NCBI GenBank assembly: GCA_028287785.1
Contig: JAQBOZ010000036.1
Location: 1 to 63,720, forward strand
Origin: Chlorobiota bacterium
GTDB lineage: Bacteria; Bacteroidota; Ignavibacteria; OLB7
Direction of reading: 5' to 3'
Length of the DNA stretch: 63,720 nt
Each line of letters begins with the position of its first letter. Within the stretch, counting starts at the first letter, position 1. A model generated the notes under the pieces. It worked only from the letters and a program-made list of their open reading frames with translations, had not been told where the DNA came from and did not search any database. Positions 28,081 through 33,617 of this stretch are shown piece after piece. A program made the position numbers and the translations under genes.

Positions 28081-28172
28081 CTTGAATAACGTCATCCGTG
28101 GCGTTGGCGGAAAAACCTTCTCAAGCCCCATCAGGGCGCAATCTCTGGTGCGTGAAGCATCGACCCGCGTGG
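28081..28172 (+). repeat. Dispersed hairpin repeat, copy R4 (diverged)
   Basis: Keeps the TTGAATAACGTCATC lead, GGCGTTGGCGG and TCTCAAGCCCC segments, but the core palindrome has decayed (CATCAGGGCGCAATC). It ends about 30 bp before the start codon at 28203. The rest of 27877-28202 is terminator and spacer. Confidence 0.7.
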
Positions 28173-28202
28173 TTGATGCATCGGATCAAATTCCCCTCCA
28201 TT

Positions 28203-31200
28203 ATGCAGAGTCGTTACGGAGTTCCCGTCTCCCGTTTCGTCCGCTTCGGCGCCGGATTGCTTCTTCTTCTGCTTTTTGCGGTAGGGGAGGCACGCGCGCA
28301 GAGATTTGCCACCATTTCGAATACCTGGGTTACAGCCAGCGTATGCAAGGACCGGCCGGCTGGAGGGCTCGGCGGGGGAAGATTCTTCATCTCTGCCGGA
28401 AATACCTACGGCAACAAGGCATTTCTCTACGCCACGACATCGAACGTCGTCTTCAGAATCGTCGTGGACGGGACGGAATATCTCTTCACCAACAGCGGAA
28501 CATCGGGATTCGGCGGCCAGCCGCTGGTTGGCGGGCCGGGCGGGACCGACGCGGTTCAGTATGCCCCGTACGATAATTTCTATGTGAGCCCCGGCCAGGA
28601 TTCCGTGGTGGTGACGTGGAAGAACCTGATGGGCTACGCCGTCAAGGAACGCCTCTACGTGGAGCCGCAGAAATCGGTCTACTCCACCGGCTCCGATGTC
28701 ATCATCGAGTTCGAGTGGAATGTGCAGCCGTACAGCCCGCCATCCGATTTCGGCATCTTCCTGATGCTGGACACCTACAACGGCCAGGCGAGCGGCACGG
28801 GCGGCTCCGCCGATTTCACATCGATTCTCACCAGCGAGGGATATTTCCCCGATCGCGGCAATGGAAAGCTTTTTATCGCCGGCAGGGATTCGATACCGGA
28901 ATTCTATCATGTCGGCAATTTCCTTCTGCAGTACCCGCTCAATACGCTCCTTCCGGTCCATCGGCTGAAGGGGCTTACCCACAACGGCGATACGCTCACC
29001 CCGCCCGACCAGTTCGCCATCGGTGACTGGGCCAACACGCTCCGGTTCTACTCGTGGGATATGAGCGGCGGCGAGGTCGGGCGCCCGTTCGGCGATTGCG
29101 CCACGGCGATGCGCTGGGAACATCTGCGCGGCAGCGGGAAAATCCGCACGGCCTACGGCATGGACGATCGCGACGGAAACAATCTCTTCCACTGTCGCGA
29201 TTCCGCCATCTTCATGGATGTGAAGACCGAGCGGCTTATCGAGCAGAAGGAGAAGAATGGGAAATTCACGCCGGATAAGTTCAACGTCGATGTCTGGGTC
29301 ACCAACACCAATGCCGACGGCCTGACCGATCTGGTCCTCACGCTGGCGCAGCCGATTGGCGGGGCGGCCGGGAAAAACCGCCTGACGATCGATCCCTCCA
29401 CGCCAGGGAACGTCAGATATCTTTCGCTTCCCAGAGGGGGGACGAAAAAAATCACATGGGTGCTGGATGTGGCCCCCGGCACCAACGATTCGCTTCTCGA
29501 TATCCCGCTCGATTTTCTCTGCCAGTATCTTCGCGATACCGTGCCGCGCAGCTTCCGCATGCCCTGCTCGCCCATCATCAGCATCCGCGGTTTCCAGGAG
29601 CCGAAGCCGCCTCAGGATACCGTGGCGCCATTGATCCTCCATTCCCCGCCGGGCAAGACGACGTGGCCGATTTTCGTTCGCGATCGCCATCCCGGCTATA
29701 AGTATGATACCGGGCTGGATAAGATCCTGATCACGGCGAACGACAACAACAATTTCCTCGTCACGCAGGCCCCCGCGCAGTTCACGCGATGCGATACGAA
29801 CGTGAACGTGAATTTCCTCTTCACCGTGGTGGATACCACGAAGCCGGCCCGCGTGGTTTTCTGCGCGTATGATTGCAGGGGAAATGTTTCGTGCGATTCG
29901 GTCTTCTACAGGCCGCGACCCGATCTTTTCGCGCCGGAAATCCTCTCGATGGTCTCCCTCGGGTCATTCGGCCCGCCGTGCAACGCGCGGGTTTACGAGG
30001 TCCGGCTGATCGACAGCACGCATCAGATGCCGGGCGCGGGTGATAATGGTTTCGGGATCATCGAGACGATCGGCACGCCGGTGAACTTCGATCCGCTGGA
30101 GATCAATTTCGACAGGGGGGATGCGCCGATCGGGGTTTTCGATTTCCACGCCGGCTTCCGCGCGCAGGTGAAGGATTCCATGATGAGTGGATCGATTGCC
30201 GTGCGCGTTGCCGATTACGCCGGCAATGCCGATACGATCACCTTCGATTACTGTACGCTTCCCGATATCCTGCCGCCGGTATCGCAGATAACGCCGGTTG
30301 CCAACCCCAACGTAACGCAGCCGGTGATCCGATGGGACGTTCACACCGGCGATATCCGCGCATGGGATCGTGGGCTTCAGAGCGTGGTGGCGCTCTCGCT
30401 GAACAATATGATCTTCAAGGCTCCGCCGCTCAGTGGTGGGGAGAGCGACGCGAATTTCTCCGTGACGGTGCAGGATACCAGCGTCTCCGCGCGGCTGACG
30501 GTGGAGGTGCGCGATACGTACTACAATGCGATTCCCGCCGGCCATGCCGATACGCTGACGTTCGTGTATGAGCCGATTCCCGACACGATGGCGCCCCTCA
30601 TCGCATTCCTCCCGGATGCCGCCACCAACGGCGCCAGCGCGCTGGTGCGCGTCGACGATATCCACGCATTCCCCTCGGGCGCGATCTATGCCTACGATCT
30701 CGGGTTGAAGAGCATCACTGTCGTTTCACGATCGCAGAATATCGAGATCGATCCGGCGCTGCCGATCAATTTCAAGCCGGCGGACGCCAGCACGACCTTC
30801 GGCATCCGGATCATCGACACGCTTGCGATGGACCCGCTGGACAGCATCTGCATCGAGGCCGTGGATCTTTACGGTAACAGGAGCATGAGCTGCTATCATT
30901 ATCCGATCCAGCCGGATACCAACAGCCCGCTCCTGACCGGCGCGCTCGATCCCACGCATACAACGCTGAGCGCCACGATCACCGATGCCCGTTCATACGA
31001 TCGCGGGCTTGGCTCGATCGTCCTGGAGAACCCGGTGAACATCGCCGGGCCGATCTCGCTGCCGGCGCTTGGCGGCGCGCATTCGAGGACGCTCGATTAC
31101 ACGATTCCCGATCCGACGAAAGCCATCTCCGGCACATTCACGGTGGTGGATCTGGTCGGGGAAATCGACAACTCGCTCCTCGGCGAAATGATTCACGTCC

Positions 31201-32009
31201 TGCGGATTCCGTTCGAGATTCCGGCGGTCGATCTCCGGCTGACGCTTCCGGATCAGATAGAGCAGGGGGGAGATATCCGCGCCGCGCTGATTGCGATGGG
31301 AGATTTCGATCAGTCGCTTGTCAGGGATATCGCGTTCGATATGAGTTATAGCGGAAACGTGGTGTATGCGGGGACGGCGAACCGGATTGCCACGCTTGTC
31401 GCCACGCCGGCGGGAAATGGAACGCTCAGGATGCTCTGCACGCCGGCCTACGCCACGGGGCGCATACAGGCCGGTGATACGCTCGGCATCATCACGTTTA
31501 CGCCGATGCGCTCCACCCAGGTGGAATCGCTTCTGCTGACGATCCTTCGTCCGAGCATGGCGGTCAATGGAAATGTCGGGAACGTCATCACCGTGCAGAA
31601 GCCGAATGATGCCGCAAGTTCCAGGCTGATGCTGCCGCCGCCATTTTTCCGGCTTGCCGCGGATTCCGTCACCTACATCAATGGCATCTGCGACAGGATA
31701 CTGACATCGCTGAGGGATGGACGCGCGAAGTTGAACGGCCTGGCGATTCTGGCGCTCAGCCCGCAGCCCGCCGCGCCCACCGGCGGAACTCTCTACGCCG
31801 ACGTTCGCGATATCCCGGCCGAGGGAGCCATCGCCGAGCTGATCTCCGCCGATGGCTTGGTTGTCGCAACGATGCAGGTAAAGGGGGGCGCGGCGCGTGT
31901 CTCCCACGTTGCGATCAATCTTCCATCCAATATTTCTTCCGGCGCGTATCTTCTCCGCATGACATCCGCGGCGGATCATGCGTGGGCGAAAGTGTTGATA
32001 GCGCGGTGA
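28203..32009 (+). CDS. Large secreted repeat protein with cohesin-like and sorting-type C-terminus
   Basis: Exported 1268-residue protein, function unknown. The ATG at 28203 begins a signal peptide (FVRFGAGLLLLLLFAVGEARAQ); the frame before it is repeat-derived. The first 450 residues form one unassigned domain. About five imperfect Ig-like units of roughly 100 residues follow, each with a Y/D-x-G-L-x-S-I-type strand, for example DTGLDKILIT, DRGLQSVVAL, DLGLKSITVV and DRGLGSIVLE. Near 1015-1135 a cohesin-like beta-sandwich appears (VDLRLTLPDQIEQGGDI to GDTLGIITFTPM), and the last 80 residues resemble a T9SS-type C-terminal domain (SGAYLLRMTSAADHAW). It is likely a cell-surface structural or binding protein. 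Confidence 0.78.
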   Translation: MQSRYGVPVSRFVRFGAGLLLLLLFAVGEARAQRFATISNTWVTASVCKDRPAGGLGGGRFFISAGNTYGNKAFLYATTSNVVFRIVVDGTEYLFTNSGTSGFGGQPLVGGPGGTDAVQYAPYDNFYVSPGQDSVVVTWKNLMGYAVKERLYVEPQKSVYSTGSDVIIEFEWNVQPYSPPSDFGIFLMLDTYNGQASGTGGSADFTSILTSEGYFPDRGNGKLFIAGRDSIPEFYHVGNFLLQYPLNTLLPVHRLKGLTHNGDTLTPPDQFAIGDWANTLRFYSWDMSGGEVGRPFGDCATAMRWEHLRGSGKIRTAYGMDDRDGNNLFHCRDSAIFMDVKTERLIEQKEKNGKFTPDKFNVDVWVTNTNADGLTDLVLTLAQPIGGAAGKNRLTIDPSTPGNVRYLSLPRGGTKKITWVLDVAPGTNDSLLDIPLDFLCQYLRDTVPRSFRMPCSPIISIRGFQEPKPPQDTVAPLILHSPPGKTTWPIFVRDRHPGYKYDTGLDKILITANDNNNFLVTQAPAQFTRCDTNVNVNFLFTVVDTTKPARVVFCAYDCRGNVSCDSVFYRPRPDLFAPEILSMVSLGSFGPPCNARVYEVRLIDSTHQMPGAGDNGFGIIETIGTPVNFDPLEINFDRGDAPIGVFDFHAGFRAQVKDSMMSGSIAVRVADYAGNADTITFDYCTLPDILPPVSQITPVANPNVTQPVIRWDVHTGDIRAWDRGLQSVVALSLNNMIFKAPPLSGGESDANFSVTVQDTSVSARLTVEVRDTYYNAIPAGHADTLTFVYEPIPDTMAPLIAFLPDAATNGASALVRVDDIHAFPSGAIYAYDLGLKSITVVSRSQNIEIDPALPINFKPADASTTFGIRIIDTLAMDPLDSICIEAVDLYGNRSMSCYHYPIQPDTNSPLLTGALDPTHTTLSATITDARSYDRGLGSIVLENPVNIAGPISLPALGGAHSRTLDYTIPDPTKAISGTFTVVDLVGEIDNSLLGEMIHVLRIPFEIPAVDLRLTLPDQIEQGGDIRAALIAMGDFDQSLVRDIAFDMSYSGNVVYAGTANRIATLVATPAGNGTLRMLCTPAYATGRIQAGDTLGIITFTPMRSTQVESLLLTILRPSMAVNGNVGNVITVQKPNDAASSRLMLPPPFFRLAADSVTYINGICDRILTSLRDGRAKLNGLAILALSPQPAAPTGGTLYADVRDIPAEGAIAELISADGLVVATMQVKGGAARVSHVAINLPSNISSGAYLLRMTSAADHAWAKVLIAR

Positions 32010-32374: not shown

Positions 32375-33184
32375 ATGAATCGTACCACACGCAGGTTCGG
32401 GTGGATTCCGGATCTTCCCGATCGTCGCGATCATCTTTTTTCCGCGCCCGCGCCGATACTGCAAAAGCTGCCGCGAAAGGTAAATCTCACAAAGCTCTGC
32501 CCGCCGATCTACGATCAGGGAATGCTTGGAAGCTGCACGGGAAACGCCATCGCCGGCGCCGTTCAGTTCAACCGGAAGAAGAACAAACAGGAGCCCGATT
32601 TCATCCCGTCGCGGTTGTTCATCTACTATAACGAACGGGCGATGGAGGGGACCGTCAACGCCGATCCGGGGGCGATGATCCGCGACGGCATCAAGAGCGT
32701 CAGCAAGCTCGGCGTCTGCCCCGAGGCGATGTGGCCGTACGACGGCAATCCGTTTCCCGACGATCCCGGCGATCAGTATCCGGCCAACTCGCAGCTCACC
32801 CGCAAGCCCGGCAGGGATTGCTATGCCGAGGCCGCCAGGCATCAGGTGATAAGCTATCAGCGCCTTGTGCAGAATATCAGCCAGTTGCGCGGCTGCCTTG
32901 CCGCGGGATATCCGTTTGTGTTCGGCGTCACGGTGTATGAGAGCATTTATGACGACGCGGTTTCGCAGACGGGCGATATCTCCATGCCGGGGGATGGCGA
33001 GAGCATCGTGGGGGGGCACGCGATGCTGGCTGTCGGGTACGACGATGCCACGCGCGTGTTCATCGTCAGAAATTCCTGGGGGAAGGCGTGGGGAAAAAAG
33101 GGATATGGAACGATTCCCTACTCGTACCTGAACGATTCAACGCTGGCAAGCGATGTATGGACGCTGAGAACGATCGAGGGATAG
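32375..33184 (+). CDS. C1A papain-like cysteine peptidase
   Basis: Papain-fold peptidase of 269 residues. All four catalytic positions are visible: Gln48 in YDQGMLGSC (oxyanion), Cys54 nucleophile in GSCTGNAIAG, His215 in GGHAMLAVGYDD and Asn233 in VRNSWGKAWG. There is no signal peptide and no large propeptide, which is typical of the bacterial C1A group with a short N-terminal extension, so a cytosolic enzyme or non-classical export is implied. The start has a good AGGAGAG upstream. Its convergent neighbour is a chagasin-like inhibitor, whose family targets exactly this class, so the two may form a regulated pair. Confidence 0.93.
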   Translation: MNRTTRRFGWIPDLPDRRDHLFSAPAPILQKLPRKVNLTKLCPPIYDQGMLGSCTGNAIAGAVQFNRKKNKQEPDFIPSRLFIYYNERAMEGTVNADPGAMIRDGIKSVSKLGVCPEAMWPYDGNPFPDDPGDQYPANSQLTRKPGRDCYAEAARHQVISYQRLVQNISQLRGCLAAGYPFVFGVTVYESIYDDAVSQTGDISMPGDGESIVGGHAMLAVGYDDATRVFIVRNSWGKAWGKKGYGTIPYSYLNDSTLASDVWTLRTIEG

Positions 33185-33185
33185 G

Positions 33186-33227
33186 CACCGGGCCATCTCC
33201 CGGCATTTCCGATACAATGGCCCGGTG
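33186..33227 (+). terminator. Hairpin downstream of the C1A peptidase
   Basis: Perfect 11-bp stem CACCGGGCCAT (33186-33196) with ATGGCCCGGTG (33217-33227), loop of 20. It overlaps nothing else; there is no strong T-run. Confidence 0.55.
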
Positions 33228-33265
33228 ATATCCTGACCGGAGCCATTGAGCATACGCGGCACGAA

Positions 33266-33298
33266 AAGCGATCGGAGGGGGAAATCCTCCGATCGCTT
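33266..33298 (-). terminator. Terminator of the chagasin-like inhibitor gene
   Basis: Perfect 13-bp inverted repeat (33266-33278 with 33286-33298). On the minus strand it is followed by TTTT, and it overlaps the inhibitor stop codon. Confidence 0.8.
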
Positions 33299-33617
33299 AT
33301 TCCACCACGCTCACCGATATTTTGAATTCTCTCTCCATTCCATCGCCGCTCGATTCCCAGCTTCGATGGTAGCGGAGCGCTATCGTCTCATCGCCGGTTT
33401 TCTCCGCCTTGAATTTCCAGCTTCGCACGGCTTCGCTGCCGGGCTTCGGTTCGCTGTCGTCATGGGTATCGTCCATCAGCGCGCAGACCGGATGGATTAT
33501 CGGCTCCAGCGTCCATCGATATCCCGCCGCGCCCCGCTCGTGCAGATCGATGCGGAGAATATCATCCCGCTTCAATGTGATCTGCTCGCCATTCGATTGT
33601 TCATCCACCGTTGTCAT
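33297..33617 (-). CDS. Chagasin-like cysteine peptidase inhibitor (I42)
   Basis: A 106-residue immunoglobulin-like inhibitor. The three inhibitory loops are all recognisable: the BC loop ERGAAGYRW (about 27-35), the DE loop PGSEAVRSWKF and the FG loop YHRSWE, equivalent to the canonical RPW loop. Chagasins block papain-family peptidases by inserting these loops into the active-site cleft. There is no signal peptide, matching the unexported peptidase at 32375-33184. The genes converge with 112 bp between them and separate hairpins. The match of target class and compartment makes the pairing likely but not proven. Confidence 0.85.
   Translation of the reverse strand: MTTVDEQSNGEQITLKRDDILRIDLHERGAAGYRWTLEPIIHPVCALMDDTHDDSEPKPGSEAVRSWKFKAEKTGDETIALRYHRSWESSGDGMEREFKISVSVVE

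Follow-up and report, generated by a model that had tools for sequence, protein, structure and literature searches.

A papain-like cysteine peptidase and a chagasin-like protein, encoded side by side in a 63,720-nucleotide stretch of a Chlorobiota genome (hereafter the window), probably form a dedicated cytoplasmic enzyme/inhibitor pair in which the inhibitor would serve as a safety catch by capping the active site. We infer binding, inhibition, a cytoplasmic site of action and this physiological purpose from the families, folds and catalytic residues of the two proteins, from their exclusivity in the genome, and from the recurrent adjacency of such genes, the I42 subtype that linked inhibitors share and the co-divergence of the two partners. 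The initial annotation had likewise proposed a self-contained peptidase/inhibitor module. Conservation of the linkage across phyla supports that proposal, but two of the three inhibitory loops of the chagasin-like protein are degenerate.

The first gene had been described as encoding a complete C1A peptidase, and we found this to be accurate. The 269-aa protein matches Peptidase_C1 above the Pfam curated cut-off and aligns with xylellain, the C1A peptidase of Xylella fastidiosa (3ois), with an E value of 1.3e-80 (phmmer). Its AlphaFold model (pLDDT 90.9) matches 3ois in Foldseek with a TM-score of 0.92, an rmsd of 1.7 and 47% identity. The window peptidase is an ortholog of xylellain, with which it shares family, length, fold and N-terminal segment; it differs in being paired with an I42 gene, a comparison in which the gene neighbourhood is known here for the window only. 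The four residues named in the initial annotation follow each other in papain order (Gln-Cys-His-Asn), as in MEROPS C1A peptidases of the xylellain type, and none of them varies in the alignment (Table 1). Within the N-terminal segment, a G-W-x-x-D-x-P-D-x-x-D motif is conserved, with G9, W10, D13, P15, D16 and D19 invariant in 66 relatives; in the xylellain structure, this segment reportedly covers the active-site cleft. The model, the 3ois match and the invariant residues together indicate a papain fold preceded by the xylellain N-terminal segment, and the protein is a predicted C1A peptidase by family, fold and catalytic residues.

Table 1 Features of the peptidase–inhibitor locus and loci of the related operon. 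Positions are those of the window unless a locus is named.
Feature	Position	Strand	Details
Predicted xylellain-type C1A (papain-family) cysteine peptidase, leaderless	32375..33184	+	269 aa; PF00112 E 8.7e-12
Conserved N-terminal segment (FGWIPDLPDRRD...), putative xylellain-type equivalent of pro-segment	32375..32482	+	motif conservation
Gln48, predicted oxyanion hole	32516..32518	+	invariant, 66 aligned relatives
Cys54, predicted catalytic nucleophile	32534..32536	+	invariant, 66 aligned relatives
His215, predicted catalytic	33017..33019	+	invariant, 66 aligned relatives
Asn233, predicted catalytic	33071..33073	+	invariant, 66 aligned relatives
Hairpin after peptidase gene (CACCGGGCCAT ... 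ATGGCCCGGTG), no T run	33186..33227	+	fold -26.4 kcal/mol, z -2.5
Hairpin after I42 gene (AAGCGATCGGAGG ... CCTCCGATCGCTT), then TT	33266..33298	-	fold -23.7 kcal/mol, z -5.2
Predicted chagasin-family (I42/ICP) cysteine peptidase inhibitor, leaderless	33297..33617	-	106 aa; PF09394 E 9.4e-14
Predicted inhibitory loop L6, RSW (RPW in chagasin), R85-S-W87	33357..33365	-	alignment
Predicted inhibitory loop L2, RGAAG replacing NPTTG (R28-G-A-A-G32)	33522..33536	-	alignment
Operon with ImmA/IrrE-I42 fusion	L216:434-2469, L217, L218; L244:2289-5450, L245, L246, L247		

The 106-aa product of the second gene matches Inhibitor_I42, again above the Pfam curated cut-off, and its AlphaFold model (pLDDT 90.5) resembles EhICP2 (3m88) and chagasin (2nqd, 2oul) with TM-scores of 0.81–0.84 in Foldseek, where the matches include chagasin taken from complexes with cathepsin L and falcipain-2. 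Profile and Ig-like fold place it in MEROPS I42 (chagasin/ICP) as a predicted chagasin-family inhibitor. No NCBIfam model matched either this protein or the peptidase. Proteins of the chagasin family inhibit C1A enzymes by placing a tip formed by loops L2, L4 and L6 in the active-site cleft (PMC2607524, PMC5014320), and in chagasin these loops carry the motifs NPTTG, GxGG and RPW/F, respectively (PMC2607524). All three inhibitory loops had been assigned to the window protein, a claim that stands for L6 but not for the motifs of the other two. The R-x-W of L6 that is common to T. cruzi chagasin, EhICP2, P. aeruginosa ICP and P. syringae Cip1 is kept as RSW, with R85 invariant and W87 present in at least 90% of alignment rows. 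In contrast to chagasin, L2 retains only G32 in the alignment, and L4 reads GSEA (G60-S-E-A63), keeping the first Gly alone. L4 is likewise variable among the I42 proteins encoded beside other peptidases (see below), and because L2 also varies in these linked I42s (e.g., ASAG, ATAG, SGGG), NPTTG appears by sequence to be a common rather than a strictly defining I42 motif. From the alignment, the loops of the window protein are in place, with two of the three motifs degenerate or non-canonical; the corresponding Cip1 mutant inhibits papain more weakly and retains partial activity (PMC5014320).

Both genes had been predicted to lack a signal peptide. Consistent with this, neither protein has a strongly hydrophobic N-terminus in a crude hydropathy test, and the fold of the inhibitor model is confident from the very first residue (pLDDT 97 for residues 1–10). 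The suggestion that enzyme and inhibitor share a compartment, namely the cytoplasm, gains support from the window pair and from the leaderless I42 found in 13 of 15 linked homologous pairs. The chagasin of protozoa acts as a regulator of endogenous C1A enzymes and, like the window I42, is leaderless, whereas the Pseudomonas I42s bear a signal peptide (PMC5014320).

The two genes are convergent, with the peptidase on the plus strand and I42 on the minus strand, and the 112 bp reported between them agree with the distance between the stop codons. They account for the single PF00112 match and the single PF09394 match in the 4.75-Mb genome. Each gene had also been described as closed by its own hairpin. 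Both hairpins are real as folds, that after the peptidase gene being moderate and that after the I42 gene strong, the latter terminating in four U, two of which lie within the stem; however, neither passes an intrinsic-terminator scan, and as terminators they are putative. The pair is flanked by a gene for a 1303-aa family-conserved protein and by histidine-kinase/response-regulator genes, one of which, a CHASE3 kinase gene, is absent from all four relatives. The 1303-aa protein (28098-32009), upstream of the pair, has no Pfam match. Each of the four other family genomes searched encodes a relative of it (38–48% identity), in some of them as two copies, and it is a family-specific large protein that is probably exported. 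The GC content of the pair (0.56–0.60) shows no departure from the flanks, and composition thus gives no sign of horizontal transfer.

Conserved adjacency of C1A and I42 genes had been set beforehand as the test of the pairing. A peptidase alignment, scanned against a single genome for each species, retrieved 80 close loci of the xylellain type, spread over many phyla, and a profile built from the I42 proteins of this analysis detected an I42 ORF adjoining the peptidase in 15 of them. This fraction is a lower bound, as several contigs end near the peptidase. A whole-genome search with Pfam PF09394 recovered all 15 I42s at the same places, 14 of them above the curated cut-off. The linked loci occur in Pseudomonadota, Acidobacteriota, Chloroflexota, Bacteroidota, Verrucomicrobiota, Actinomycetota, Planctomycetota and one Bathyarchaeote. 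Nine are convergent with the I42 gene downstream, as in the window, four are tandem with it downstream and two are tandem with it upstream; gaps range from an overlap of a few bases to 391 bp, most are below 170 bp, and some of the genes touch or overlap. The remaining 65 loci have no adjoining I42, which indicates that the inhibitor is not obligatory. When mapped on a tree built from 87 peptidases, linkage marks 16 rows on scattered branches and requires at least 12 changes, so the association has been lost and/or formed many times. I42 is the sole neighbour family that recurs across unrelated lineages of xylellain-type loci, and no alternative inhibitor family recurs across lineages beside the unlinked genes. 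The linkage thus holds across phyla but not among the nearest relatives of the window: a same-genus genome has neither gene, two other relatives (G010 and G020) carry both but on different contigs, and the distribution of both is patchy in the window's class.

This absence of linkage in the nearest relatives is what would be expected if the two genes were chance neighbours or hitchhikers with no functional relation. Chance would give about 0.02 adjacencies across the 80 loci (about 0.015 when calculated for the 50 genomes in the search), and the observed linkage comes in three arrangements and many phyla; we rejected chance adjacency on the linkage frequency and regard this explanation as vanishingly improbable. 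Genetically linked bacterial cysteine protease/inhibitor pairs are characterized by conserved adjacency beyond chance, as found here, and by co-transcription with the inhibitor, for which only the six tandem loci are arranged, the window and the other nine linked loci being convergent.

Xylellain-type peptidases are also abundant on viral contigs, some of 300–400 kb: one scan returned 237 relatives, of which 80 were kept. None of these 80 viral loci has an I42 gene nearby. Searching plasmids with the window I42 alone gave no matches.

Surveys centred on I42 recovered a C1 peptidase within about 1.5 kb of eight of nine I42 genes in 150 Acetobacteraceae genomes, and of 17 of 25 newly fetched I42 genes in 345 genomes of the window's phylum, where most of the 17 linked loci come from a single family (f31) and are not independent events. 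No linkage was found at 11 further I42 loci of the window's class, whose I42s are leader-bearing types. The f31 pairs are conserved and tandem: a different leaderless C1 type with an RICNLVPS N-terminus precedes, on the same strand, an I42 whose N-terminus is leader-like, so that the leaders of the two proteins seem not to match (L219-L228, L230, L234, L235, L238). In another genome of the phylum (G395), the gene for a more distantly related C1A peptidase is followed on its own strand, after 12 bp, by an I42 gene (L195:1324-2592). At two Acetobacteraceae loci (L213 and L214), the C1A peptidase has a signal peptide, and the I42 gene next to it is transcribed divergently and encodes a lipobox-like leader; this is apparently a secreted counterpart of the window pair.

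We then compared the histories of the two partners. On an I42 tree with few alignment columns and weak support, xylellain-linked I42s of different phyla cluster, requiring 7 changes compared with 14.4 in shuffles; with the same few columns and weak support, the five rows nearest the window I42 are all xylellain-linked I42s of other phyla and none is an I42 of its own class. Across 16 pairs, distances between peptidases correlate with those between inhibitors (Mantel r 0.62, p 0.0002), and still do so in the 12 pairs left after pruning near relatives (r 0.42, p 0.014). These results bear on whether the I42 is instead aimed at foreign C1 peptidases (i.e., those of phage, predators, hosts or neighbours) and merely clusters with an endogenous C1A gene. 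Pseudomonas offers a precedent, since Cip1 has plant proteases as targets and most genomes of the genus encode no C1A target (PMC5014320), and the many viral xylellain-type peptidases, encoded without I42, could be such targets. A foreign target would nevertheless leave the linkage unexplained and would suit a leaderless inhibitor poorly, and the association with xylellain-type genes, the clustering of I42s across phyla and the co-divergence all point to the neighbour as the target. We consider this alternative highly improbable.

For the favoured pairing of enzyme and inhibitor in the cytoplasm, we propose that two locks would restrain the peptidase. The first, in cis, would probably be its own conserved N-terminal segment, and the second, in trans, the neighbouring leaderless chagasin-family protein, whose Ig-fold tip (L2, L4 and L6) would plug the active-site cleft of peptidase molecules that have turned active. 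Proteolysis could thereby be confined to the time or amount that the cell wants, and because the genes are convergent rather than in one operon, the dose of inhibitor could be set independently of that of the enzyme. One feature is unexplained by this simple same-compartment picture: two linked I42s (L079 and L039) and those of f31 have leader-like N-termini, whereas their peptidases are leaderless.

Such an arrangement has parallels in known systems. Staphopain–staphostatin, SpeB–Spi and the Bacteroides C10 pairs likewise encode a small inhibitor next to a bacterial protease of papain fold. Their enzymes are secreted C47/C10 zymogens, co-transcribed with inhibitors whose folds are unrelated to I42, whereas the window combines a leaderless C1A enzyme and an I42 inhibitor in convergent genes. 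For SpeB–Spi and staphopain–staphostatin, the adjoining inhibitor is considered to block, in the cytoplasm, any enzyme that becomes active too early, and inhibitors are likewise linked to the C10 proteases of Bacteroides (PMC3462683, PMC8443034); by analogy, the window pair may work like the former two, with other families. Isp1/IPI of Bacillus subtilis resembles the window pair in that an intracellular subtilisin is matched by an inhibitor with an Ig-like fold that is likewise reported to be intracellular (PMC3901451), but Isp1 is a serine protease and IPI belongs to a different inhibitor family. Both of our families, and protease/inhibitor gene pairs as a kind, are already known. We found no description of a prokaryotic C1A–I42 gene pair in the open-access papers searched. 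The role of bacterial chagasins was called unelucidated in a 2016 paper (PMC5014320), and the recurrent C1A–I42 pair suggests what the endogenous target could be for a large group of these proteins. It would make their role testable with two small soluble proteins and connect the control of C1A enzymes by protozoan chagasin to prokaryotes.

Papain-like toxins of T6SS and CDI systems with adjoining immunity genes are also known, as in Cpe1–Cpi1 (PMC12136450), and raise the alternative that the peptidase is an interbacterial effector delivered into rivals while I42 protects the producer. Like the window, Cpe1–Cpi1 joins a papain-like enzyme to an adjoining neutralising protein, but Cpe1 is a delivered toxin and Cpi1, which is not an I42 protein, blocks substrate binding. 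Leader-like or lipoprotein-like N-termini on some linked I42s, and Acetobacteraceae pairs that seem secreted on both sides, would fit delivery. The window peptidase, in contrast, is a bare 269-aa enzyme that lacks both a signal peptide and a trafficking domain, and beside it we saw neither secretion genes nor Rhs/VgrG/CdiA genes; I42 has a conserved fold and is not an immunity protein of the fast-diverging kind. An effector/immunity role is therefore very unlikely for the window pair.

Latent toxicity could also be directed at the cell itself, in a toxin/antidote or abortive-response module whose cytotoxic peptidase would stay restrained by I42 until stress or phage infection set it free. We judge this unlikely for the window, where no regulator, metallopeptidase or mobile-element gene adjoins the pair, PADLOC assigned neither protein to a described defence family, and the genes are convergent and not co-transcribed, unlike most toxin–antitoxin pairs. 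Many close homologs of the peptidase also lack an adjoining I42. Nevertheless, the patchy spread across phyla is consistent with horizontal transfer, and a related plasmid operon joins an XRE regulator (CapH-like), a CapP-like ImmA/IrrE–I42 fusion and a C1 peptidase. Extending this operon's logic, prokaryotic chagasins as a class might be antidotes to neighbouring C1 peptidases and some pairs, possibly the window's, latent proteolytic effector modules for stress or anti-phage responses, a generalization that we regard as doubtful. If it were true, loss, titration or cleavage of I42 would unleash a cytosolic papain-like enzyme, as the plasmid operon suggests.

The operon itself is a candidate proteolytic toxin–antidote or defence system. 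Its XRE and metallopeptidase genes match the CapH and CapP profiles, and it is conserved on plasmids and in draft genomes of Rhizobium, Bradyrhizobium (next to Shedu), Sphingobium and Haloarcula; we read it on four plasmids, three alphaproteobacterial and one from Haloarcula, and the fusion protein has relatives on a total of 16 plasmids, including one from Burkholderia. The genes run in the order hypothetical (about 113 aa), XRE, ImmA/IrrE metallopeptidase–I42 fusion, C1 peptidase and hypothetical (about 260 aa), with the I42 domain C-terminal to the metallopeptidase. The last hypothetical is thymidylate-synthase-like by eye, and a uracil-DNA glycosylase often accompanies the operon.
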